This document shows, in pieces, positions 3,667 to 63,261 of a DNA stretch of 64,000 nt (positions are counted from its first letter, which is position 1; each line of letters starts with the position of its first letter). The DNA is from Nannochloropsis salina CCMP1776 (lineage: Eukaryota > Sar > Eustigmatophyceae > Eustigmatales > Monodopsidaceae). The notes beneath the pieces are model-generated. The model was given only the letters and a program-made list of their open reading frames with translations. It did not search any database and was not told the origin of the DNA. The DNA is taken from assembly GCA_004565275.1 (NCBI GenBank), contig SDOX01000001.1, forward strand, positions 940,947 through 1,004,946. The letters run 5' to 3'. Both the position numbers and the translations under genes were made by a program.

Positions 3667-5454
3667 TCAAGTCGCGTAGGTACCGTACATGAAAAGAACC
3701 GTCATCACCACTCCCAGACCCACCCCTATCCTCGCAACTACTCTCCACCGCCTCGTCTTCCCTTCCTCCTCAGCAGGCAGGGATGACAAGGTCGGCGACA
3801 GAGAGGAGAGGCGGAGAAAGTACAGGGAAGGCAGGGTGAGAGAGACTGGGACCGTCGCCAGGGCACCCACAGTGCCCAGAATGATGCTCAGGTCTGTGAA
3901 GCTGAGGGCCAGGAGGTACGACACAACAACGAGAACCACGGTGGCAGATACGAAATGGTGCGAGGCGAAGAGGGAGGCAGAAGGGAAGAGGGACAGCAGG
4001 GACGCCCGCGCGGCGAAGACTGGGCAGCCCAGTACAAGGATGGGGAAAAGAGAAAAAGATGGAGGCATGAGAAGGAAGGAAATGTGAAAGCAGAGAGAAA
4101 AGAAATACGAGGGGTACGGGAGGGATCACGAGAGGTACGGGAAGAAATACGAAAGGTACGAGAGGGTAAGGGAGTGCCCGTGCAGAGTCCAAACACAGCA
4201 AACGTGTGAAGCAACGCTCGTGCCTTACACAAGAAGATGACAACATACATAGACGAGACAAGACAGTAAGAACACATCTGATTCATACAGTATAAAGAGA
4301 GAGAAGGGTCACGTACTGACGAGGGGAAAGAGCAAAGCAACGACCGCCAGCATCATCACGCGGGAGACCGCCAAGGCCCCCGTGTTGCCGTAGTTTTTGA
4401 ACAAGTTCCCTTGGACCCGATCTCCGAAGGTCAAGTAAGCAGAGACAGACACCAGCAAGTATGTCAGTCCGGAGAACACAAGCGCGCCTGCTGTAGCCCG
4501 ACGCGTGGTAGTGAGGGAGGGATAACGGAGGGCGTTGTGGACCGGGAGCACCTGGTAGATGATGGAAAAGGAGACGAAGAAGATCGGACAGGCCAGCAGG
4601 AAGGAATGGACGAGAGACGACGCCGAGGCAGGGTAGGCCACGACGTTCTCTGCACAAGTCTTCGAGGAGGAGGTCGGGTACAGGAGGCAGGCGCCGGCGG
4701 AGGGGAAAAGGAAGAGCACGAAGACGAGAACGATCAAGTAAACGACGGTGATACAGGTGATGATGCCTACGTACTGCAAGGGGGTAATAGAGTGCAGAAA
4801 ACAGAGCGGAAGGACGAAGACGAGGGGGAGGGTCACCCACGTTGGGCGATTGAGAAGGTAGCTGTCCACGTTGCCGTCGCTGTCTTCTACCCAGGGGGTA
4901 TGATGAAAGATGAGGGCCAAGTCTTGAAGGGTAGCAGGCAATATATCGCCAGCCACCACCAGCGCAGACACAGCGCTGCCTAGGCAAGTCACAATGACGA
5001 GCACGGTGGGAAGGAAAGTCAGTCTTGGAGTGGCGTGGGAGGCGATGTCCGCGAAAGAAAGAGCATCCCTGTTGACGGAGGGGTACATTGAAGTCACGAG
5101 CCTTGCACTTTCCAGAAGGAAGTGCGCGCCCAACTCGGTGAAAAGACCGCAAAATATCATGCACAGTGTGCCCAAGGCCCATCCGCATTGGCTGAATGCG
5201 AACGGAACCACGAGGATGGAGGAGCCAAACACGGAGGAAATCAGGATTAGAATACTGCTCGTCAGGGTGCCTGTTCCTGCCTGGTATGTAGTGGTTCTGC
5301 GTAGTATATCAGGAGCATTCGTACTTCCGTAGAAAGAAGAATCGGTCGATATTAAAGATGTAAGCGGCCCGGGAACAGATTCGGAGTCCCCTCTTGGATC
5401 TTTGCCAGGATGAGTTGGTACGATGTTCCATCCTGGAGTAGTGACGCCAGGCAT
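3667..5454 (-). CDS. AAAP-family amino-acid transporter, tandem copy A
   Basis: This is a proton- or sodium-coupled amino-acid carrier of the amino acid/auxin permease (SLC32/36/38, plant AVT-like) family. Exon 1 is 4317-5454 and exon 2 is 3667-4019; together they encode 496 residues. After a hydrophilic head of about 60 residues, the first membrane helix reads GTGTLTSSILILISSVFGSS, the family's TM1 with its unwound Gly/Ser segment. Further helices follow up to a C-terminal block with LSFTDLSIILGTVGALATVP, typical of the late AAAP helices, giving about 11 in all. The splice join restores the block FPLV-IFAARASLLSL. From TM1 onward it is almost identical to copies B and C, but its N-terminal head is different. 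The membrane (plasma, vacuole or plastid) cannot be told from sequence. Confidence 0.9.
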
Positions 5455-6843
5455 GACTCCTGAATAGATACCTGTGGTTCAAACAATTGGAAAGGAGATG
5501 AGGCGATACGGTCACCGACAATTGAACGCATGGTAAGAACAACCCGGTGAAGGGAGCATGAGAAGCGAGCAGAGAGTACGCGCGATGGCGGTCGTCCGTG
5601 CCCACCTTCAAGAGGCATTTGAAAGTTCCCCCAAAAAACATGACCGCTGGCATCTCATACAAGTGGTACCAGGCGTGCAGAATTGGTGGCCGTGATGGTG
5701 CCAACATCGCTTGACGACAGACAGTTCGCGGTCGATTGTTGCGAAGGCTTCTGGCACGGTATCGGGGTTTTGACGGAGATCTTGACGGTTACACACAACT
5801 TCATCGGCGGTAACTGTCGATGGAGATTTTTATCTCAAACGCACAGGTATAGAGTGCTGAAGTACCTCTCGTGTGACGTGCTTTAAAAATTATGGAATCA
5901 ATGTGAGTTATTCTGGGGCCATGGACAAAGCAGAAAGCATACCAAAAAGTACCTACCATGTTTGTGGGCAAACTTTCAGCGCATGTATCGTCCTTCGACT
6001 TTTAAATGTCACTTTGTAGTCATCGATCCAGAGACGACGCCTTTTCTGCCGAGTGAATGGATATAATTTATCGATCGGCACTATCCACGGGCACTGCATA
6101 ATTAAAAGAATGATGAGGGAAGACAACAGCCCATGTCAATAATATTTATTCTTCCGCCCTCTCAACAACTATGTTCCTCGAGCTCATCTCAATTACTTCT
6201 ATCGTTTCATGTAGTGCGCTGCTGGTTTCGCTCAGAGGGGACAGTCCGGAGATTCTACAATAATAAATTGGTTACTGTCCTTAATTCCCGTGTTTTCACT
6301 CGAGACATGACAACACGACGTTTCTTCGACACAGAATTTTGACTTCCCTTGTGAGTACTTTACTTTTGTTTCACACCTTTCCTTAAAAGGTATGGTTTGG
6401 GGTAAAAGAGGCTCATCAAATGTGGTGCTAACAGTCTTATCGCTCTCAGAGATACACGCCGTCTTACGCGTCCTTTGCCCGCCTACCTTCATGCGCCGCA
6501 GGCAGCTTTGGTAGAGAATTTGCGCTGCCATCCAGCACGTATATATACTCGAAAGCGACCCGCAACATTGACATCTTTCATCATGACTTCCTCAACATAC
6601 TTACACTCGTGCGCTACTACGTCACTCGTAAAAGTATGGCGCAGTCTTGCATTGGAAAGGAAAATTAAACCCGTTCTCTTTCACATTCCAGTCGCGATTT
6701 CAACATTCTTTCGATATCTTCACATACTTTACAACGCTCTGATTCACTCAGGCCTAGATATCTCTTCTTTTGAACAATAGCCATAATCCTCGGATCTCCT
6801 TTCCTCCCTCACTTCCTCCTCCCCATTCTTCTTCCCAGTCTCG
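5455..6843. other. Spacer between transporter copies A and B
   Basis: This is 1.4 kb without a supported gene. The part nearest copy A (about 5740-5880) resembles the upstream regions of copies B and C, with a shared stretch around a repeated 'gacggagatcttgacgg' motif, and should hold the copy A promoter. About 6510-6780 closely matches 9210-9470, so the spacer itself was duplicated with the gene. The region between is AT-richer and unremarkable. Confidence 0.6.
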
Positions 6844-8643
6844 TCAAGTCGCGTAGGTACCGTACATGAAAAGAACCGTCATCACCACTCCCAGACCCAC
6901 CCCTATCCTCGCAGCTACTCTCCACCGCCTCGTCTTCCCTTCCTCCTCAGCAGGCAGGGATGACAAGGTCGGCGACAGAGAGGAGAGGCGGAGAAAGTAC
7001 AGGGAAGGCAGGGTGAGAGAGACTGGGACCGTCGCCAGGGCACCCACAGTGCCCAGAATGATGCTCAGGTCTGTGAAGCTGAGGGCTAGGAGGTACGACA
7101 CGACAACGAGAACCACGGTCGCGGATACGAAATGGTGCGAGGCGAAGAGGGAGGCAGAAGGGATGAGGGACAGCAGGGACGCCCGCGCGGCGAAGACTGG
7201 ACAGCCCAGTACAAGGATGGGGAAAAGAGAAAAAGATGGAGGCATGAGAAGGAAGGAAATGTGAAAGCAGAGAGAAAAGAAATACGAGGGGTACGGGAGG
7301 GATCACGAGAGGTACGGGAAGAAATACGAAAGGTACGAGAGGGTAAGGGAGTGCCCGTGCAGAGTCCAAACACAGCAAACGTGTGAAGAAACGCTCGTGC
7401 CTTACACAAGAAGATGACAACATACATAGACGAGACAAGACAGTAAGAACACAGCTGATTCATACAGTATAAAGAGAGAGAAGGGTCACGTACTGACGAG
7501 GGGAAAGAGCAAAGCAACGGCCGCCAGCATCATCACGCGGGAGACCGCCAAGGCCCCCGTGTTGCCGTAGTTTTTGAACAAGTTCCCTTGGACCCGATCT
7601 CCGAAGGTCAAGTACGCAGAGACAGACACCAGCAAGTATGTCAGTCCGGAGAACACAAGCGCGCCTGCTGTGGCCCGACGCGTGGTAGTGAGGGAGGGAT
7701 AACGGAGGGCGTTGTGGACCGGGAGCACCTGGTAGATGATGGAAAAGGAGACGAAGAAGATCGGACAGGCCAGCAGGAAGGAATGGACGAGAGACGACGC
7801 CGAGGCAGGGTAGGCCACGACGTTCTCTGCACAAGTCTTCGAGGAGGAGGTCGGGTACAGGAGGCAGGCGCCGGCGGAGGGGAAAAGGAAGAGCACGAAG
7901 ACGAGAACGATCAAGTAAACGACGGTGATACAGGTGATGATGCCCACGTAGTGCAAGGGGGTAATAGAGTGCAGAAAACAGAGCGGAAGGACGAAGACGA
8001 GGGGGAGGGTCACCCACGTTGGGCGATTGAGAAGGTAGCTGTCCACGTTGCCGTCGCTGTCTTCTACCCAGGGGGTATGATGAAAGATGAGGGCCAAGTC
8101 TTTGACGATATCAGGCAATATATCGCCAGCCACCACCAGCGCAGACACAGCGCTGCCTAGGCAAGTCACAATGACGAGCACGGTGGGAAGGAAAGTCAGT
8201 CTTGGAGTGGCGTGGGAGGCGATGTCCGCGAAAGAAAGAGCATCCCTGTTGACGGAGGGGTACATTGAAGTCACGAGCCTTGCACTTTCCAGAAGGAAGT
8301 GCGCGCCCAACTCGGTGAAAAGACCGCAAAATATCATGCACAGTGTGCCCAAGGCCCATCCGCATTGGCTGAATGCGAACGGAACCACGAGGATGGAGGA
8401 GCCAAACACGGAGGAAATCAGGATTAGAATACTGCTCGTCAGGGTGCCTGTTCCTGCTTCATGGGTATGTGTTTGGTGCAAAACGTAATGATCCTTTGAG
8501 CTGCCGTAGTAAGGGGAGGGAGCCTTGAAGACCATCGAAGAAGTAGTCGGACGTTGGACTGAAATGGATGAAAAGTCCTCTGCTGCACCGTAAGACGGTC
8601 TACGCCGTGCTACGTTTCGTCCTGGAGAAGAACCATTAGACAT
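6844..8643 (-). CDS. AAAP-family amino-acid transporter, tandem copy B
   Basis: This is the second of three tandem amino-acid permease genes. Exons 7494-8643 and 6844-7196 join to 500 residues, with the single intron at exactly the same place as in copies A and C. The N-terminal head (MSNGSSPGRNVARRRPS...) is hydrophilic and Ser/Arg-rich, and is shared with copy C rather than copy A. From the first membrane helix onward the protein differs from copy A by only a handful of residues. The intron is also nearly identical to that of copy A, which points to very recent duplication or gene conversion. The start is the ATG at the beginning of the shared B/C head. Function is as for copy A; the substrate is unknown. 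Confidence 0.9.
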
Positions 8644-9522
8644 GGTCCAAGAAAGGATGCCTGTGGCTTTAATAGCAAGGAATTAAATGAGGTGAGACAT
8701 TTCGCGGCAATCGCATGCATACTTAGAAAAACACAGTGAACGGGAGCATGCAAACCGAGCACGAGCATGGGTGGAGGAAAACGACCGATGGCGATCGCGG
8801 TTGGTTACTTCCCCTTGAAGAGGCATTCGAATGCTCCAAAACAGATGGAACTTCCCAGGTATCTCATATGATTGGTACTCATGCGCTGAAGTAGTGGCCA
8901 CGACAGTGCCGTCATTGATTCTTTTGGATTACTACGGTTTCTTGTTGCGACGGCTTCTGGCACTGGATCGGGGTTTTGACGGGGATCTTGACGGTTACCG
9001 TTTTCGCCTTTATCGTCGGTAAATTTCGATGGAGATAATTATCTCAAACGCACAGTTGTAGAGTGTTGAAGTACCTTTTGTGTGATGTGCATTTGAAAAT
9101 ATTGAGTCAACGGGAATGACTCTCTGTCCTACTACGGATACAGCAGAAAGTATACTCAAGAAAACCAACCCACCGTGTTTCTGGGCAGACTGTTGTCCAA
9201 AAAAGAAACGCTGCAATGCTATCCAGCACGTATCTATGCTCGGAAGTGGCCCGCAACATTGACATCTTTCGTCATGACTTCCTCAACATACTTACACTTG
9301 TGCGCTACTACGTCACTCGTAAAAGTATGGTGCAGTCTTGCGTCCGGAAGGCTAATTAAACCCATTCTCTTTCACATTCCAGTCGCGATTTCAACATTCT
9401 TTCGATATCTTCACATACTTCACGACGCTCTGATTCACTCAGGCCTAGATATCTCTTCTTTTGAACATTTAATATCATTTACGATCCTCATTTCCTCCCT
9501 ACCTTCCTCCTTCCCACTCTCG
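8644..9522. other. Spacer between transporter copies B and C
   Basis: This holds the copy B promoter region and the end of the next repeat unit. About 8640-9010 is nearly identical to 11320-11700 upstream of copy C, and 9210-9470 matches 6510-6780. I see no coding potential other than short chance frames. Confidence 0.6.
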
Positions 9523-11319
9523 TTAAGTCGCGTAGGTACCGTACATGAAAAGAACCGTCATCACCAGTCCCAGACCCACCCCTATCCTCGCAGCTACTCT
9601 CCATCGCCTCGTCTTCCCTTCCTCCTCAGCAGGCAGGGATGACAAGGTCGGCGACAGAGAGGAGAGGCGGAGAAAGTACAGGGAAGGCAGGGTGAGACAG
9701 ACTGGGACCATCGCCAGGGCACCCACAGTGCCTTGAATGACGTTCAGGTCTGTGAAGCGGAGGGCCAGGAGGTACGACACGACAACGAGAACCACGGTCG
9801 CGGATACGAAATGGTGCGAGGCGAAGAGGGAGGCAGAAGGGATGAGGGACAGCAGGGACGCCCGCGCGGCGAAGACTGGACAGCCCAGTACAAGGATGGG
9901 GAAAAGAGAAAAAGATGGAGGCATGAGAAGGAAGGAAATGTGAAAGCAGAGAGAAAAGAAATACGAGGGGTACGGGAGGGATCACGAGAGGTACGGGAAG
10001 AAATACGAAAGGTACGAGAGGGTAAGGGAGTGCCCGTGCAGAGTCCAAACACAGCAAACGTGTAAAGCAACGCTCGTGCCTTACACAAGATGACAACATA
10101 CATAGACGAGACAAGACAGTAAGAACACAGCTGATTCATACAGCATAAAGAGAGAGAAGGGTCACGTACTGACGAGGGGATAGCGCAAAGCGACGGCCGC
10201 CAGCATCATCACGCGGGAGACCGCCAAGGCCCCCGTGTTGCCGTAGTTTTTGAACAAGTTCCCTTGGACCCGATCTCCGAAGGTCAAGTACGCAGAGACA
10301 GACACCAGCAAGTATGTCAGTCCGGAGAACACAAGCGCGCCTGCTGTAGCCCGACGCGTGGTAGTGAGGGAGGGATAACGGAGGGCGTTGTGGACCGGGA
10401 GCACCTGGTAGATGATGGAAAAGGAGACGAAGAAGATCGGACAGGCCAGCAGGAAGGAATGGACGAGAGACGACGCCGAGGCAGGGTAGGCCACGACGTT
10501 CTCTGCACAAGTCTTCGAGGAGGAGGTCGGGTACAGGAGGCAGGCGCCGGCGGAGGGGAAAAGGAAGAGCACGAAGACGAGAACGATCAAGTAAACGACG
10601 GTGATACAGGTGATGATGCCCACGTAGTGCAAGGGGGTAATAGAGTGCAGAAAACAGAGCGGAAGGACGAAGACGAGGGGGAGGGTCACCCACGTTGGGC
10701 GATTGAGAAGGTAGCTGTCCACTTTGCCGTCGCTGTCTTCTACCCTGGGGGTATGATGAAAGATGAGGGCCAAGTCTTTGACGATATCAGGCAATATATC
10801 GCCAGCCACCACCAGCGCAGACACAGCGCTGCCTAGGCAAGTCACAATGACGAGCACGGTGGGAAGGAAAGTCAGTCTTGGAGTGGCGTGGGAGGCGATG
10901 TCCGCGAAAGAAAGAGCATCCCTGTTGACGGAGGGGTACATTGAAGTCACGAGCCTTGCACTTTCCAGAAGGAAGTGCGCGCCCAACTCGGTGAAAAGAC
11001 CGCAAAATATCGTGCACAGTGTGCCCAAGGCCCATCCGCATTGGCTGAATGCGAACGGGAACACGAGGATGGAGGTACCAAACACCGTGGAAATCAGGAT
11101 TAGAATACTGCTCGTCAGGGTGCCTGTTCCTGCTTCATGGGTATGTGTTTGGTGCAAAACGTAATGATCCTTTGAGCTGCCGTAGTAAGGGGAGGGAGCC
11201 TTGAAGACCATCGAAGAAGTAGTCGGCCGTTGGACTGAAATGGATGAAAAGTCCTCTGCTGCACCGTCGGACGGTCTACGCCGTGCTACGTTTCGTCCTG
11301 GAGAAGAACCATTAGACAT
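9523..11319 (-). CDS. AAAP-family amino-acid transporter, tandem copy C
   Basis: This is the third tandem permease: exons 10170-11319 and 9523-9875, 500 residues, same architecture as copy B. It is the most diverged copy. Changes are concentrated in predicted helices: TM1 reads LISTVFGTSILVFPF where copies A and B have LISSVFGSSILVVPF, the end of exon 1 reads ALRYPLV instead of ALLFPLV, and the late helix reads LRFTDLNVIQGTVGALAMVP. There is also Asn-to-Lys and Trp-to-Arg in the loop before the Leu-Asn-Arg-Pro block. The frame is intact throughout, so the gene is probably functional and perhaps shifted in specificity. It lies directly downstream of PRP19 on the same strand. Confidence 0.9.
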
Positions 11320-12148
11320 GGTCCAAGAAAGGATGCCTGTGGCTTTAATAGCAAGGAATTAAATGAGGTGAGACATTTCGCGGCAATCGCATGCATACTT
11401 AGAAAAACACAGTGAACGGGAGCATGCAAACCGAGCACGAGCATGGGTGGAGGAAAACGACCGATGGCGATCGCGGTTGGTTACTTCCCCTTGAAGAGGC
11501 ATTCGAATGCTCCAAAACAGATGGAACTTCCCAGGTATCTCATATGATTGGCACTCGGGCGCTGAAGTAGTGGCCACGACAGTGCCGTCATTGATTCTTT
11601 TGGATTACTACGGTTTCTTGTTGCGACGGCTTCTGGCACTGGATCGGGGTTTTGACGGAGATCTTGACGGTTTCTCACACCTTCATCGGCGGTAAATTTC
11701 GATGGAGATAATTATCTCAAACATGTATACACACGTAGTCCATACTGAGGGATCTAAAATGTAATTCTTCCGCAACTTAGTGGAGAGTGTTATTATATCT
11801 TTGGTATGATGTGCCTTTAAAAAATTCCAATCAATGGAATTGATTCTGAGCCCGTGAACAAAAGAGAAAGCATTCTCACGAAAACCAAACCCCCAACTTT
11901 GGGAGCAGACTTCAGCGCACATCTTGTCTTTAAGTTTTAATTTTCGCTTTGTAGTAATCGAGGCAGAGACGGCGCTTTTCTGTCGTACTCAATTATTCTA
12001 TCTCATCCGCCGATTCTTTTTTGAGCACTGAGACACGCGCAGGCTCTCCTTCTGCCTTGATGGGAAAGTTTCTGTTCTCCAGGGTTTTTAAGACACCGAA
12101 AAGGACACAACTACTTGCAGGCATCTGAATAAGACAGTGCAATGCCCG
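11320..12148. promoter_or_regulatory. Upstream region of transporter copy C, behind PRP19
   Basis: About 830 bases separate the PRP19 stop from the copy C start, both genes on the minus strand. The half nearest copy C (to about 11700) repeats the copy B upstream region and should carry its promoter. The rest is unique, and I see no coding signal. Confidence 0.5.
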
Positions 12149-40797: not shown

Positions 40798-47878
<7,081 letters not shown>

Positions 47879-55046: not shown

Positions 55047-58000
55047 ATGGTTGCGGCTAATGCTCCGATAGTTGAGCCTCGGAATGGTGGCAGAAACCGT
55101 GTCCGTCGTTACGTACTAGGAGGTTTTCTCTTGGCGGCTGTGGTGGGAGGAATTTTGGCCCTAGTCTTCACAGTGGGGAGAAAACCAGAGAAGACGACCG
55201 GTGTTGCAGGCAGCGTCACATCCTCCCTTTCGGATGGAGACACGACACTGTCTGACGTGTTGGCAAGCATTAAAGCCGCAGGTGATGTCTCCGGCTCGTC
55301 TTCAGGCTCGTCCATGAACGTGAGCCCTCTCACACCTGATTTGGAGGCAGCCCTGCAGGCTGCCATCGCCAAGAATAGCGTCGGAGACCCGTTACAAATC
55401 GGGGATGCGGTGGAAAATGGTGATTTGACCTTGGAGGGAGTGAAGAAAAAGAGTGGCATGGGTGACATGGATATGGGTGGTATGGATATGGGTGATATGG
55501 ATATGGGTGGTATGGATATGGGTGATATGGATATGGGTGATATGGATATGGGAGATATGGATATGGGTGATATGGATATGGGTGATATGGGTATGGGCAT
55601 GGGAAATAGTCCCAGGAACGCCACAGATCTGTCTAAGTTCGTGGGAAAGGACACATGCTGGCCCCGAAACATTGTCGAGCTCCAGATTGCCGTGGAGGAG
55701 GCGGACTGTCCCCTCGTGGTACTGACCAACCCGAACCCAATGGCCTACATGCTCATGGATATGAACGAGATTATGGTTATGCGACACGTGCGAGTCTTGG
55801 GCCATCCTGCTCTTCTCCCCACCATCGATGCGATGATGGGCATGCGCGCTTTCACTATCATGGAGGGAGGCTTCTTGGAGCTGCAGTACGTGAGGGTCAG
55901 GCAGGGTATGGGTATGTATCGAGATCGTTACGGTTTGGAGGGACGGGATGACGTCTCCTCCAAAGTATTTGAGATTAAGGGAGGAAGTGTCATGTTGGAA
56001 GAGGGGGCCGAGGGCGCGAATTTTGTCGGAGTCATCTTCCTTGCAGTAATGACGAACCAGGAGATGACAGAACAGGCCATTCAGGACCAGATCGACATGA
56101 CAGGCTGGCGAATCTATGGAGGCCATGTATATGTGACTGCGGGCACAGTGCGCTTTTTCAATTGCCATTTCTGGGACTCTATGATCCTCATGCCTTTTAC
56201 AGACCAGGTGGCGATCGGAGCGGATATCTTGGTCCTTGCAGGGAACGTCTTCGTCACGGGTTGCACCTTCACGAATACGATGCTCTTCTCGAATTATGGG
56301 GGGGCGGGGTGGAACATTGTCACCCTTGGGGGTAATACGGTTATGACTTGGTGTACCATCCAATGGCAGGCCATTATCATGTCCATGTTCGTGGCGGGTA
56401 TGGTCGTTTTCACAGGCGGAGGAACCTTAATCATGACTGGAGTCGATTTCCGTTTCGTCTCCGCGGGGATGAATTTCGCAGGTTTCGGCTCGTTTGGGAC
56501 AGGGGCAGGAGTCATGGTCAATACAGGCGTGACCATGGAGCAGGTTTTCGCGGTCATGTCCTCCTTTGGCGCCAGTATGTACAATGCCGTAGGAGCCGGT
56601 GTTTTGATCGAGTCTGGAGCAACTTTCGTTCAATTTACTGGCCCGGTTTACATGGCCATGACTGGGATGATGGACTTTCTGGGCACAGGCGCCTCTTCCC
56701 ATGTGGGTGTGCCATGCTCGATGTCTGGTTCCACGGGGGCAATGCATGGACAGGGAGGCTTCAGTTACAACGGAGCCGGGTCTTCGGTATGGGTGGGATG
56801 CCCCGTCGCCATGTTCTGGGCTGTCTACTCCTTCTTGGGCACGGGCGGGGTGGCGGCTCAGGGAGCAGGAATTATGATTTGGGTCGGAAATCCGGTTTTC
56901 ATGCCGATGGCTGTTTCCTACTTCGCGGGCTTGGGGGCGATTATGTTCGTGGGTGCCGGCTCTGCGGTGATCGCCTTGTCGCCGGTGTCGATGCCGATGG
57001 CGGTCATGGCCTTTGCGGGTCCGAGCATGCCTATGATGATGGACAACGATATGATGGATATGCCCCCGCACGGTGGTGGCAACCACACCATGATGAGTGT
57101 CAAACACATGGGTAACCACACTATGGGGAACAACACCATGGGAAATGATACCATGCATATGAACGACGATATGCACATGAACGACGATATGCATATGAAC
57201 GACGATATGCACATGAACGACGATATGCACATGAACGACGATATGCACATGAACGACGATATGCATATGAACGACGACATGCACATGGACGACGATATGC
57301 ACATGATGATGATGCCGGCGAATTTCTGGATTCAGGGGAACATCATGGCAATGGGCAGGGGTGGCGAGTACGTGACGGGTAAGAAAAAGAACAACCACAA
57401 TATGACAATGCGATCCCGCATGCTGTCGTCGAAGCCTGTAGTCAAGCTCTCACAGGAGAGTGGAGGGTCCAAAAGCCTAGAGCGAGAGCCAGACCATGGA
57501 GTAAGACGCTTGTCCGGCTCGACTTTTATGGATGCCTTAGATCTCTTTGACGACGGAGATGAGCGGGGATCCAAATTGTTGGCGATTGGCTTGGATGTCG
57601 ACAATGATTTGGATATCCGAAAAGATGGAATGGCTGATAAATTTAGAAGCTGGGTGCCTGAAAAGTTCATCAAGGTCGCTGCGGACGTTGCAGCACTTAA
57701 GGAGAGCATCGCCTTGAGATCTGCTGGAGAAAAAGATCCCCCTCGGTAAGTTGCGCTCTACTTGTTACATATATCATCACTTGCATGAACTTGCATCTCA
57801 CAAAATGGATACATTTTGAACAGGCGCTCAAAGATCCACCCAATTAATTTGCGGGTCGAGAACGAAGGCCTTGATTATTGTGGCATCTGTGAGACGGATC
57901 TTGTAGACGGCAAGGGATTGAACACTTGTAACGTGATGGACTCCTGCACAGACCTCCGCGAGCAAGCCCCGGAAGGCACTCAAGCCGCTTTCGATATGGG

Positions 58001-58985
58001 AGATGTGTCCTTCGATCCCACGCATATGGTTATGGCCGAGTTTTTACCTACCACAGGAGCTAGTGTGGAGGAAGGCTCATTCGACCCGAGTATGCTCCGA
58101 CGCGCCCTTCAAGGTTTCTTGAAGAAGAACAAAACGACGGGGGTCCAGGTGTCGACGTTTTCAGCCATGCAAGATAAGTTCTTCATGGGCCTCGCTGACG
58201 CCACAGCCCCTGCGACGAGGGCGAGGCGACATGCGCTCCGCAAATTGCGTCATGAGGACAAGGGCGTCGTAGAAGAGGACGTGGTAAAGCAGGAGGAGGA
58301 ACAGGTCAGGCAGCGACAGGAGCGTCGGCGTCGGAGGTCTCTGTTCGCGAACGCAAATTTCCCGAATACCCACGCGTTGAAAGCCGTCTTTGTCACCACC
58401 GACGCAGCCAAAGCAGAAGCCTTGACAAGTGCTCTCACGGATGCCAGCTCGGAGGGCTACCAAAAGATGGACAAATACGTGGGCGACTTTTTAAAAACCT
58501 ACGAAGGCGTCTTAATCCAAGCATTGGATGGTAAGCTTCTTCAGAACATCAATGTGCCGGCTTATGCGAGCATCGACTTCACCAAGGCTTTCGCTCAAGA
58601 TGTAGGCGCAGCGGCGGGGTCCCAGTCGGTCCGCTTAATTGATCCTGTCAACGCAGGCATGCCCTTGTCCAGGGCAGTGGTGGGGAAGGACTATGAAGTG
58701 GAGCTCGCTGGATTCCCGAAACAAACCTTGTTGTCTGTGACACTGTATGGACGAGATCCGACTGGAGAGAAACAGACGGCAGCCTTGGTCAAGAAAGTCC
58801 TCACTACTGATAGGATGGGAAACGCGAACTTTGCCTGGACCGTCCCAGTCGACCAAACGCCCGGCGATTATTATCTGAAGGCCGCAGATTTGACTGGGAA
58901 AGTGTTTGGCATGTCAACAAGTTTTGAGGTGGATCAAAAGCCGAAGCGCCGTTTGGTAGGGCCTTCACACACAGTGGAATTCTAG
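55047..58985 (+). CDS. Met/His-rich single-pass membrane protein with probable beta-helix ectodomain
   Basis: I do not recognise a named family. Exons 55047-57745 and 57824-58985 join to 1286 residues. A short basic cytosolic head is followed by one membrane helix (about 27-46, LGGFLLAAVVGGILALVF), giving type II topology. Residues about 137-186 are repeats of Met-Asp-Met-Gly-Asp/Gly. A long region (about 200-660) has regular strand-turn units such as YGGHVYVTAGTVRFFNCHFW and VLAGNVFVTGCTFTNTM, the look of a right-handed parallel beta-helix, unusually rich in Met. Residues about 703-757 are Met-His-Met-Asn-Asp-Asp repeats after NHT/NNT glycosylation sites. The C-terminal exon has a Cys cluster (YCGICETDLVDGKGLNTC) and a final Ig-like strand pattern. 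Mets motifs suggest Cu(I) binding at the cell surface; this is inference. An NRAMP gene follows. Confidence 0.9.
55456..55603 (+). repeat. 15-base coding minisatellite (Met-Asp-Met-Gly-Asp/Gly)
   Basis: About nine in-frame units of GATATGGATATGGGT type encode the first Met-rich array. Third-position variation is small, so the array expanded recently and may vary in length between strains. Confidence 0.9.
57153..57315 (+). repeat. 18-base coding minisatellite (Met-His-Met-Asn-Asp-Asp)
   Basis: About eight in-frame 18-base units encode the His/Met/Asp-rich array. They differ mainly by synonymous CAT/CAC and GAT/GAC changes, so protein-level selection is plausible. Confidence 0.9.
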
Positions 58986-60103: not shown

Positions 60104-63100
60104 ATGCCACCGGTGGCTGCGATTTCACTTCCTGAAAGTGGCCTTCCTCCATCACCCTCCATCTCAACAAAGCTCGAGGCCTCAGACAGCATGAGCTACA
60201 CCGCTCCAGAGAGCATCAATCAGGCATCCAATTCAGAGTCCTCATCATCGACTGAAACAACCTATCACACATTTCGGGGGAAGATAGCCTCGTTTTTGTA
60301 CATGGTTCCCCCATTGGCGGCTTCTTCCACTGCAGAGGAACGCCTTCCCCTATGCAGCACGACTAGCTCACAAGACAGAAATAAACGTACTCTGCAAGTG
60401 ACGCCACAATCATCATCCTCAGAATCCTCCCCCATCCTGACCTATACAACGCACGCGCCTCCCACGCGCCCGCCCACGCGGCTCCTACCGTCCCTCCCTG
60501 AGGCTTACCACTCCGTCCCAGTTCCTCGCGCCCGTCCTGGGGAAGCCTCGTGGCTTTCCCGATGTCGGTATGCAAAAATAAATTCCAAGTCGAAAGTGGA
60601 ACAGAGGGCTCCATAGAAGGTTTAGACTGATGAGCGTACGCGTCCCTTTTCTCTTTCGTTGGTATTGTTTTTCTTTCTTGACAAACAGAACGCTTTTGGC
60701 CTACGTGGGCCCGGGGTACATGGTGGCTGTAGGTTACATGGATCCTGGAAATTGGGCGACAGATATAGCGGTGAGTCCCTCGGTAAAGGGAACCCATAAA
60801 GAGAGGGCGTGGAGTGCAGGCTTGACGTGCGTGGGATGTCGAAGATCGATGGGTGGAAGGAAAGCACTACTTCCTGACTCGACTCAATCTCTCGTCCTGC
60901 ATCGTGACAGGGAGGAGCCATCTACGACTATGCTCTCCTCTCCGTCGTCCTCCTCTCCTCCCTCCTGGCAGTCTTCCTCCAGGTGTTGACAGTAAAACTT
61001 GGGGTCGCCACCAAACGGGACCTTGCCCAGATGTGTGCCGAGGCCTACTCCCCCCGCTTTGCGGTCTTCCTCTGGATCACGGCCGAAATCGCCATTGCAG
61101 CCTGCGACTTGGCTGAAGTTATTGGTACGTTTGGCTTTCCCTCCCTCGGTCGCACACGGGCGCTGCCCTCTGCTCATCTTCGTCTGCTCCTTCTTTCTGT
61201 CACCGTTGTTTCCTGCCAATGGGACAGGCTCCGCTATTGCTTTGCAACTTCTCTTTGGGCTCCCGCTAGTATGGGGATGCTGTTTGACAGCTCTAGGTGC
61301 GAAAGGGACAGAAAGGAGTAAAGGACAGTTCTGAATCTATGAGAGGGGAAGGAGACGAGGGTATTGAAAGGGGGAGGCGTCCCACCACATTCCTATATCT
61401 TTAATATCTTCGCCTTTCCCCTGAACCCCTCCTTTGCACTCCAGACGTTTTGATTGTCCTCTCATTCTTCGATAAGCCCGGGCGCCGGTTTCGTGGCCTC
61501 GAGCTGGCTGTGATGGGTCTCATCGCCGTCATTTTTGTTTGCTTCGCCGCGGAAATAGTCCTGTCCCGGCCTTCTTTCTCAGGTACTTTCCCTGTCATGC
61601 ATTGCTCTCTTGTACGTTCCTTACACTGTCCTTTGATATTTCCCCCCCCTGTGCTTACTGTTACCGTCCCCCATCTTTTTCCACTTCTCCTCTTACGACC
61701 TCTTCGTCGCCGCAGGGGTGATGAAAGGTTTCTTTGTTCCCGACCTCTATGCCCTCGCGACGCAGGCTCCTCGCCTATACATCGCCATGGGTAAGAGAGG
61801 GTCATAATGAGGGAAGAGGGGATTTCGTGGCTGTCTTGGTCGTGGAAAGAAGAGAGACAAAGAACTGGAAGAAACATTTGATGTATCAGTGACCCATCGA
61901 AAGCCGCTAATCGGTCGTCCTGATCATGCGAGCAGGTATTTTAGGCGCCACAGTCATGCCTCACAACCTATACCTACATTCGTCGCTGGTACAAACGCGG
62001 GATTACGGAGAAAGCGTGGAGGACAAGGCGTAAGTAGGAAAGAATGGAAGGAATGAGGTGAAAACGGCCCATGGATGGAGGCATTGGAGCTATCTGCACG
62101 GATCACCCGCCGGCACTGGCTTGTTCGTTCCGCCTTGACGTCGGTTTTCTCACAAGTCTTACCGCATCCCTACCAGCGAGGCCATATTCTATTCATCCCT
62201 GGACACGATCATCGCCCTCTCCTTGGCCCTCTTCGTCAACGCGGCCATCCTTATCGTTGCAGCCGCCGCTTTTTTTGATCCCAGTGGTTCCACTCAGGAT
62301 GCTCCTTCCGTATCGGAAGCCTACGATTTACTGGCACCCGTGCTAGGTGAGAAAGTTCGGGAGTTAGGAGAGGGGTATTTTTTTTTTCTTTTCTGGTGGT
62401 TGGCTCTTAAAGGGCATGAACGAATGGAAGAATGCGAGCTCCCTGCATGAGAAGGGAAGGAAGGGGATGGAGAAAGGCGGTCCTGCTCCTTACACATCCT
62501 TGATGCACGCATTTTGGATTCCTATTCCAACAGGCAACAAAGCTGCGTCCATTCTCTTTGGAGTTGCCCTCCTCGCGTCGGGTCAGAACAGTACATTGAC
62601 CGGCACATTGGCAGGGCAAATTGTAATGGAGGGCTTCGTGCAGGTATTAGCTTGACCAATTGACAACATCCAGAAGATTTTTTTCCCCTGAAAGGTCACC
62701 TGTCGTGCGCAGTGCTTGGTCGTGTTACCACTTTGTCTGCTATTCATGTCAAGAATTTCTCCCTTCGTTATCTTTTTATTTTATCTTCGTAAGGTACGCT
62801 TGAAACCCTGGCTTCGTCGCCTTATCACACGCCTGGTGGTGATCGTCCCCGCTGTGTTCACTGTAGTGTTGGCAGGCGACAAAGGAGTAGACTTCCTTCT
62901 CGTCCTTTCGCAGGTAAATGGACGAGGAATGTTCCGCGAGACTGAAGGGGCGGAGAATGAAAATGGGCCAAGCGCAAAGAGAGCTTTTTGGATCGGAAAT
63001 TATCGTGGTGTCAAAATACATAGTGATGACCCGAGCTGACACATCATATGTATTATACCACTCCAGGTTATACTGTCGTTCCAACTCTCCTTCGCAGTTT

Positions 63101-63261
63101 TCCCGCTCGTTATGTTCACTAGCGATGTCTCCGTCATGGGTACAGAGTTTGTAAATTCCCCATCGACTTCCTTTCTGGCCTGGGTCTCTGCCATTCTTAT
63201 AGCCGCTTTGAACATATGGTTGTTGGTCATGACAGTTGGACAAGGCAGCATCCCTGCTTAA
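60104..63261 (+). CDS. NRAMP-family (SLC11) divalent metal transporter
   Basis: This is a proton-coupled importer of Mn2+/Fe2+ and related ions. Eleven exons: 60104-60567, 60689-60770, 60911-61124, 61228-61296, 61445-61582, 61716-61790, 61936-62029, 62177-62346, 62534-62643, 62794-62913, 63067-63261; 576 residues. A Ser/Thr/Pro-rich cytosolic head of about 150 residues precedes TM1, which carries the metal-binding D173-P-G-N176 in [15 protein letters not shown]6 carries the A-x-x-M355-P-H357 motif in [20 protein letters not shown]. Other family blocks are [20 protein letters not shown] and [19 protein letters not shown]. The C-terminus is short. With Met in TM6 the expected substrates are Mn/Fe/Cd rather than Al or Mg. 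The ATG at 60104 starts the longest plausible head. It lies 1.1 kb downstream of the Met-rich surface protein. Confidence 0.95.

Follow-up and report, generated by a model that had tools for sequence, protein, structure and literature searches.

The way in which algae collect copper and other scarce metals ahead of the transporter is, to our knowledge, poorly known, and the locus described here raises the question of whether a large methionine-rich membrane protein could carry out such a capture step. The gene lies on the forward strand at positions 55047 to 58985 of a 64,000-nucleotide stretch of Nannochloropsis salina CCMP1776 (assembly GCA_004565275.1, contig SDOX01000001.1, positions 940,947 to 1,004,946), referred to below as the window, and 116 of the 1286 residues of its predicted product (9.0%) are Met. 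An initial annotation, made from the sequence alone, had proposed a candidate surface copper binder of an undescribed family. We give an even chance to the proposal that the protein captures or buffers Cu(I) at the cell surface by means of a Met-loaded ectodomain and two Met arrays, and hands the metal over to an importer. The case for copper is built on a gain of Met found only in this member of a paralogous family, an array spacing that recurs in a CTR copper transporter, and a neighboring NRAMP gene.

The family comprises about 23 separate loci, including that of the window, found by tblastn with both exons in the organism's own 26.5-Mb genome; this count is a lower bound, and some copies are possibly broken (matches at C42 contain a stop). 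The window copy is on C1, and the other loci are C1:190 kb, C8, C21, C14 (two), C62, C94, C15, C12, C98, C26, C9, C42 (two), C6, C19, C93 (four), C61, and C71, the last of which was added by a search with the distant member C94. E values to other loci were as low as 2.4e-158 for exon 1 and 5e-51 for exon 2, and homology spans the repeat domain, the Cys cluster, and the C-terminal domain. In the usual layout, a repeat domain opening with C.P....EL is followed by a variable linker, then by a CxxC...C...C cluster, and finally by a C-terminal sandwich; copies such as C8 also have a membrane segment ahead of the repeat domain. Light-harvesting proteins in the same genome point to a red-lineage alga, likely a eustigmatophyte near Nannochloropsis: the one at C57:584 kb agrees at about 164 of 169 residues with VCPI-2 of PDB 8zo9, a violaxanthin-chlorophyll protein of Nannochloropsis, a second has FCP-D as its best match, and of two others, one matched LHCI-11 and the other matched nothing at 1e-30.

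Met content sets the window copy apart from its relatives. In an alignment of the nine members whose repeat domain lies in one open frame (54 invariant columns), the Gly-rich repeat domain of the window protein (residues 195 to 661, positions 55629 to 57029, about 9% Met) has 44 Met in 472 aligned residues (9.3%), versus 6 to 13 (1.3 to 2.8%) in the eight other members. The closest paralog, C8, is 55% identical, and at the 207 aligned sites that differ, Met is found only in the window copy at 40 and only in C8 at 3. C8 and C21 both lack Met at 41 of the 44 positions, one of which faces a gap. A simple reading is that Met was gained on the window gene's own branch, since a tree of the nine members joins the window copy with C8 (support of only 0.58) and places both with C21 (support of 1.00). 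Relative to the C8 codon, the 40 gained sites differ by one base at 5, two at 21, and three at 14. The C8 residue is Ala, Leu, Phe, or Ile at 23 of these sites and non-hydrophobic at 17, so the gain is more than an exchange among core residues. Over positions 55614 to 57029, ATG accounts for 9.3% of coding-frame codons but only 1.9% and 1.1% of those in the other two frames, with 1.6% expected from base composition. The locus also offers a clean case in which a duplicated gene gained one amino acid directionally throughout a domain, its close paralogs serving as internal controls.

The same contrast holds for the two Met arrays. Array 1 (MGDMDMGGMDMGDMDMG..., of the MDMGD type; residues 138 to 186, positions 55458 to 55604) is a tandem repeat with a 15-nucleotide unit, 9.3 copies, and 93% matches. 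Array 2, with MHMNDD repeats at positions 57153 to 57306 (18-nucleotide unit, 8.6 copies, 93% matches), forms part of a Met/His/Asn-rich linker with glycosylation sequons at positions 57030 to 57317, and its MHM-nnn-MHM repeat was found in the window gene only in a whole-genome search. Among the 21 of 22 other loci that were examined (C71 was left out), a script counted no Met array. The maximum number of Met per 40 residues, counting open frames of 150 amino acids or more, was 17 in the window copy and 5 or less in 20 loci; at C93:491 kb, a value of 8 came from a shadow frame, and the family frame reached at most 3. Other paralogs carry arrays of a different kind. In two tandem, near-identical copies at C14:95.2 kb and C14:100.9 kb (L010 and L031), the linker array consists of HDD repeats, CEEHEDHDDHDD...; it differs in length between the copies, and its repeat pattern is found at no other place in the genome. 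In the copy at C93:491 kb (L032), the linker is very long and rich in Asp; besides other DDD runs, it holds a DDDVEDDDVEVEHGAA-like unit repeated 12 times. Both the HDD and the DDD-rich arrays sit after the repeat domain, in the same linker as array 2, and in the C14 copies the Cys cluster comes after the array. Against its consensus unit, array 1 shows 1 synonymous and 2 non-synonymous substitutions. Array 2 shows 5 and 3, respectively, or 4 and 1 when its first, degenerate codon is set aside, in which case synonymous changes make up 4 of the 54 that are possible; this hints at constraint on the array 2 protein sequence, with the caveat that repeat copies are not independent.

The spacing M.M..M.M..M, to which the following comparison applies, has 31 matches genome-wide, compared with 3 for a backwards-pattern control. 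The matches fall in the window (seven, overlapping) and in five ATG-rich simple-repeat places (C2, C15, C52, C66, and C93); a single further one, at C57:1361367, is followed 0.33 kb downstream by a Pfam Ctr match (C57:1361729), one of three Ctr loci in the genome. The C57 match (MDMDMPGMDMDMPGMDMGGMGDSGG...) is apparently in the exon preceding the Ctr match, with MDMDMPGMDMDMPGMDMGGMG as its array. Its codons differ from those of the window array, which rules out a recent duplication at the DNA level. The window protein thus shares with CTR transporters (PF04145) an M-D-M-G type array of common spacing, of the kind carried by CTR ectodomains and predicted to lie on the same side of the membrane; unlike them, it has one clear helix, at the N terminus, and no Pfam Ctr domain with its three membrane helices, and its arrays are borne on a large repeat ectodomain. 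One review (PMC9502191) describes N-terminal Met and His motifs of CTR proteins as catching copper at the surface, with the Met motifs favoring Cu(I). A further candidate likeness was rejected: MMMMPANFWIQGN resembles the MMMMP motif of CTR proteins, but FWIxG-type residues at this site are a family trait (FWIAG in C14, YYVQG in C8), and the Met run precedes them.

The repeat domain has a clear period. Over residues 350 to 661, the autocorrelation of Gly reaches 0.61 at a lag of 30 residues and 0.49 at 60, and that of hydropathy is 0.28 at lag 30. Met follows the same register: pairs exactly 30 residues apart number 9 in this stretch, versus 2.6 to 2.7 expected under two nulls of 20,000 draws each (P = 0.0003 and 0.00065), values that are optimistic because the stack was spotted by eye before testing. 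The best such stack runs through residues 559, 589, 619, and 649. In residues 191 to 660, where 43 of 470 residues are Met, the motif MxM occurs 9 times, compared with a shuffle mean of 3.8 (50 of 5,000 shuffles reached 9). The period fits a beta-solenoid of 30-residue coils, which bears on the beta-helix suggested by the initial annotation. The fold itself is unproven, because the single-sequence AlphaFold2 model was unusable (mean predicted local distance difference test score [pLDDT] of 31) and profile matches were not significant. The best matches in PDB were an acetyltransferase of the left-handed beta-helix kind (E = 0.23) and an alginate lyase (E = 0.42), and the pectate-lyase-kind profile PF12708 reached E = 0.062 in one of nine family members. 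Beta-helix proteins of the pectate-lyase kind have a compatible coil period; the window protein differs in its 30-residue Gly-rich coils, its lack of a significant match to them, and its lack of a usable model.

The neighboring gene encodes an NRAMP-family metal transporter in several exons (positions 60104 to 63261, forward strand), recognized by Pfam Nramp and by DPGN and MPH motifs. Pfam Nramp matched three of the six open reading frames (ORFs) given (E = 2.7e-13, 9e-5, and 0.003). The recognizable part begins at about 60690, 1.7 kb past the stop of the window gene and on the same strand; the ORF at 60104 to 60567, which Pfam did not recognize, is probably the first exon, a splice having been found. 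The genome has two Nramp loci, this one on C1 and another on C52. In PMC9502191, NRAMP is listed as a low-affinity route for copper, and a diatom NRAMP is reported as two-fold up at low copper.

From these features we infer the surface location, the solenoid fold, the binding of copper, and its hand-over. Residues 21 to 46 (positions 55107 to 55184) form the sole strong N-terminal hydrophobic segment by hydropathy, with a similar segment in C8 (query residues 8 to 78, tblastn E = 6.9e-5). Since the N side of this segment is positive, a type II topology, N-in and C-out, is expected. Further hydrophobic stretches at residues 388 to 658 fall inside the Gly-rich repeat and are probably coils. In the mechanism that we propose, the protein would be a type II membrane protein exposed at the surface of the cell. 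Its ectodomain, with a 30-residue period, and its two low-complexity arrays, all loaded with Met, would bind Cu(I), and array 2 might take Cu(II) as well through its His, Asn, and Asp. Copper reduced at the surface would be held by thioether sites near the membrane and then passed on for import, most likely to the CTR with the like array and less likely to the adjacent NRAMP. A wider and rather doubtful extension is that the family consists of surface solenoids in which different ligand arrays (Met/His, His-Asp, or Asp-rich) in the same linker make metal-specific receptors; the family would be private to these algae, and in the window copy Met would have taken over the entire solenoid, its stacked residues forming ladders on the coils that pass Cu(I) toward the membrane. 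If members of a surface family bear different ligand arrays, the capture step could be tested one gene at a time.

Several results weigh against capture of copper for import. The resemblance to CTR is one of motif only, and the window protein itself is no transporter. Met repeats of other spacings occur elsewhere in the genome: MxMxMxMxM has 113 matches (control, 9), mostly simple repeats among the 100 matches listed, and MxxMxxMxxM has 60 (control, 25). Four such places that were read are a chaperonin-like GGM tail, an MGG-repeat protein, a short MPDMGSMPDM stretch, and MKMDMTMDM on C15, with a stop soon after. Both arrays are minisatellites in which independent substitutions are few, and when lags 29 to 31 are pooled, the excess of Met pairs is weaker (12 versus 7.2 expected, with 235 of 5,000 draws reaching 12). 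The other paralogs lack Met arrays, and the family is therefore not a copper family as such. An NRAMP neighbor as a trait of the family is also unsupported. Around 15 regions, 81 flanking ORFs of at least 110 amino acids were collected, some being family exons or shadow frames and three regions having none; 24 flanking ORFs from 11 paralog regions, scanned with Pfam, included no metal transporter and gave four families, WLM, clathrin adaptor, ubiquitin, and ATG17-like, the scanned set containing none from the DDD-array copy L032. Adjacency to NRAMP may therefore be due to chance, and in a eukaryote it is weak evidence in any case.

The main competitor to capture for import, although unlikely in our estimate, is a surface sink that would stop excess Cu(I) or Ag(I) from entering the cell, the role proposed for the Met/His-rich CopM of a cyanobacterium. 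Sequestration would suit a protein with many sites and no transporter part, and a study of CopM (PMC4335983) reports that about 30% of it is extracellular and that its expression lowers the total cell copper of a mutant. Yet the array spacing is common to CTR, a family of uptake proteins, and the adjacent NRAMP likewise belongs to a family of importers. The same source names PcoE, CopK, and CusF alongside CopM as Met/His-rich copper binders outside the cytosol. The likeness of the window protein to these four is one of function only, by its presumed extracytosolic copper binding; they are bacterial, with CopM extending to residue 196, whereas the window protein is a eukaryotic membrane protein of 1286 residues with no family match.

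Less probable again is a shield against oxidation or a store of sulfur, in which surface thioethers would scavenge oxidants that arise at the surface of the alga and be recycled by reductases, with no metal involved. The spread of Met throughout the repeat domain, including the 17 of 40 gained sites that are non-hydrophobic in C8, and not in the arrays alone, would be expected of such a shield, which has no need, however, of evenly spaced MxM motifs, of His and Asp set among them, of stacking at 30 residues, or of a match to CTR. Alternatively, and more improbably still, the protein may be a partner of the adjacent NRAMP for Mn or Fe, its acidic and Asn array residues gathering hard ions and Met being secondary. 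The close, same-strand NRAMP and the Asp-rich arrays of this copy and of three paralogs are consistent with this, but the residue that was gained is Met, a soft ligand, rather than Asp or Glu, and the scanned part of the other paralogs' flanks holds no such neighbor. Least probable of all, we consider it quite improbable that the protein serves in wall structure or adhesion and that its Met piled up without function by drift and minisatellite slippage. The arrays are DNA tandem repeats and the family has the look of surface proteins undergoing diversification, as this account would have it; the asymmetry of 40 versus 3 Met against C8, arising mostly by multi-base changes, and the low ATG content of the other frames argue against it. 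Surface capture of copper for import remains our preferred reading. For the copper claim of the initial annotation, then, the private Met gain, the CTR spacing, and the NRAMP neighbor add support, while binding as such is predicted from sequence features.

The frame starting at the ATG at 55047 is open for 900 codons. Exon 1 (positions 55047 to 57745) encodes residues 1 to 899 plus two bases, and is followed by a 78-bp intron (57746 to 57823, GTAAGT...AACAG) and by exon 2 (57824 to 58985), which completes residue 900 and continues through residue 1286 to the stop. The in-frame GT-AG splice joins a single continuous frame of 1286 amino acids with one terminal stop, both exons are matched by paralogs in the same genome, and in C8 and C21 the region from the repeat domain through the C terminus is a single open frame, which bears on the intron call. 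The single helix, two Met arrays, Met-rich repeat ectodomain, Cys cluster, and glycosylation sites noted in the initial annotation were all recovered in this two-exon gene. Of the eight N-x-S/T sequons, four lie at residues 679 to 702, right before array 2. The Cys cluster, CxxC...C...C, occupies residues 919 to 941 (positions 57879 to 57947), with Cys at 919, 922, 935, and 941; of the 12 paralog segments that were scanned, 10 have CxxC, and the fuller motif is also found in paralogs.

The C-terminal domain (positions 58617 to 58940, forward strand) is likely an immunoglobulin (Ig)-like or macroglobulin-like beta-sandwich, as judged by a single-sequence model, Foldseek, and a sub-threshold Pfam match. 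A 199-residue piece (58386 to 58982) folded alone had a mean pLDDT of 53.7, with ten-residue means of 55 to 81 in the strands over about residues 81 to 190 of the piece. Foldseek matched this model to alpha-2-macroglobulin and to Wzt carbohydrate-binding domains (E of about 1e-5, TM-score to query of 0.32 to 0.38) as well as to many Ig-like folds, and Pfam MG2 gave E = 0.027 and 15.3 bits, below its cut-off of 32.8. The sandwich thus resembles the macroglobulin and Ig-like domains of alpha-2-macroglobulin by fold and weakly by MG2; it differs in being an end domain only, below the Pfam cut-off and in a model of moderate confidence. The protein ends in the tail KPKRRLVGPSHTVEF (positions 58938 to 58982), with similar tails in related paralogs (PKRRLWGP in C8, MKRKLYGP in C21, and ARRRKMYGP in C14). 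A basic tail of the form ...R(R/K)..(Y/W/V)GP plus a few residues occurs in copies related to the window gene (L008, L009, and L010) and is possibly a sorting signal.

The description of the family as undescribed holds for the collections searched. Neither Pfam nor NCBIfam gave a family at its curated cut-off for the window protein or the family, and no PDB sequence matched significantly. No cupredoxin domain of the multicopper oxidase or CopA-PcoA kind came up: exon 1 matched no Pfam family at E ≤ 1, and exon 2 matched three other Pfam families, all below cut-off. Pattern-seeded scans of viral contigs and prokaryote genomes, which were seeded with short peptides and may miss distant relatives, returned no relative, and in the literature we recognized no title describing the window protein or a Met-rich beta-helix copper protein. 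Recent amplification is suggested within the family by nearly identical stretches in a tandem group of three at C93:121-138 kb (L045 and L046) and in a duplicated pair on C42 (L041 and L042). Elsewhere in the window, positions 4107 to 11358 hold three similar copies, near 4.1, 7.3, and 10.0 kb, with the same 21-base tandem repeat and like ORFs, indicating a local triplication, and at positions 45466 to 45663 a 99-base unit occurs twice with 100% matches.

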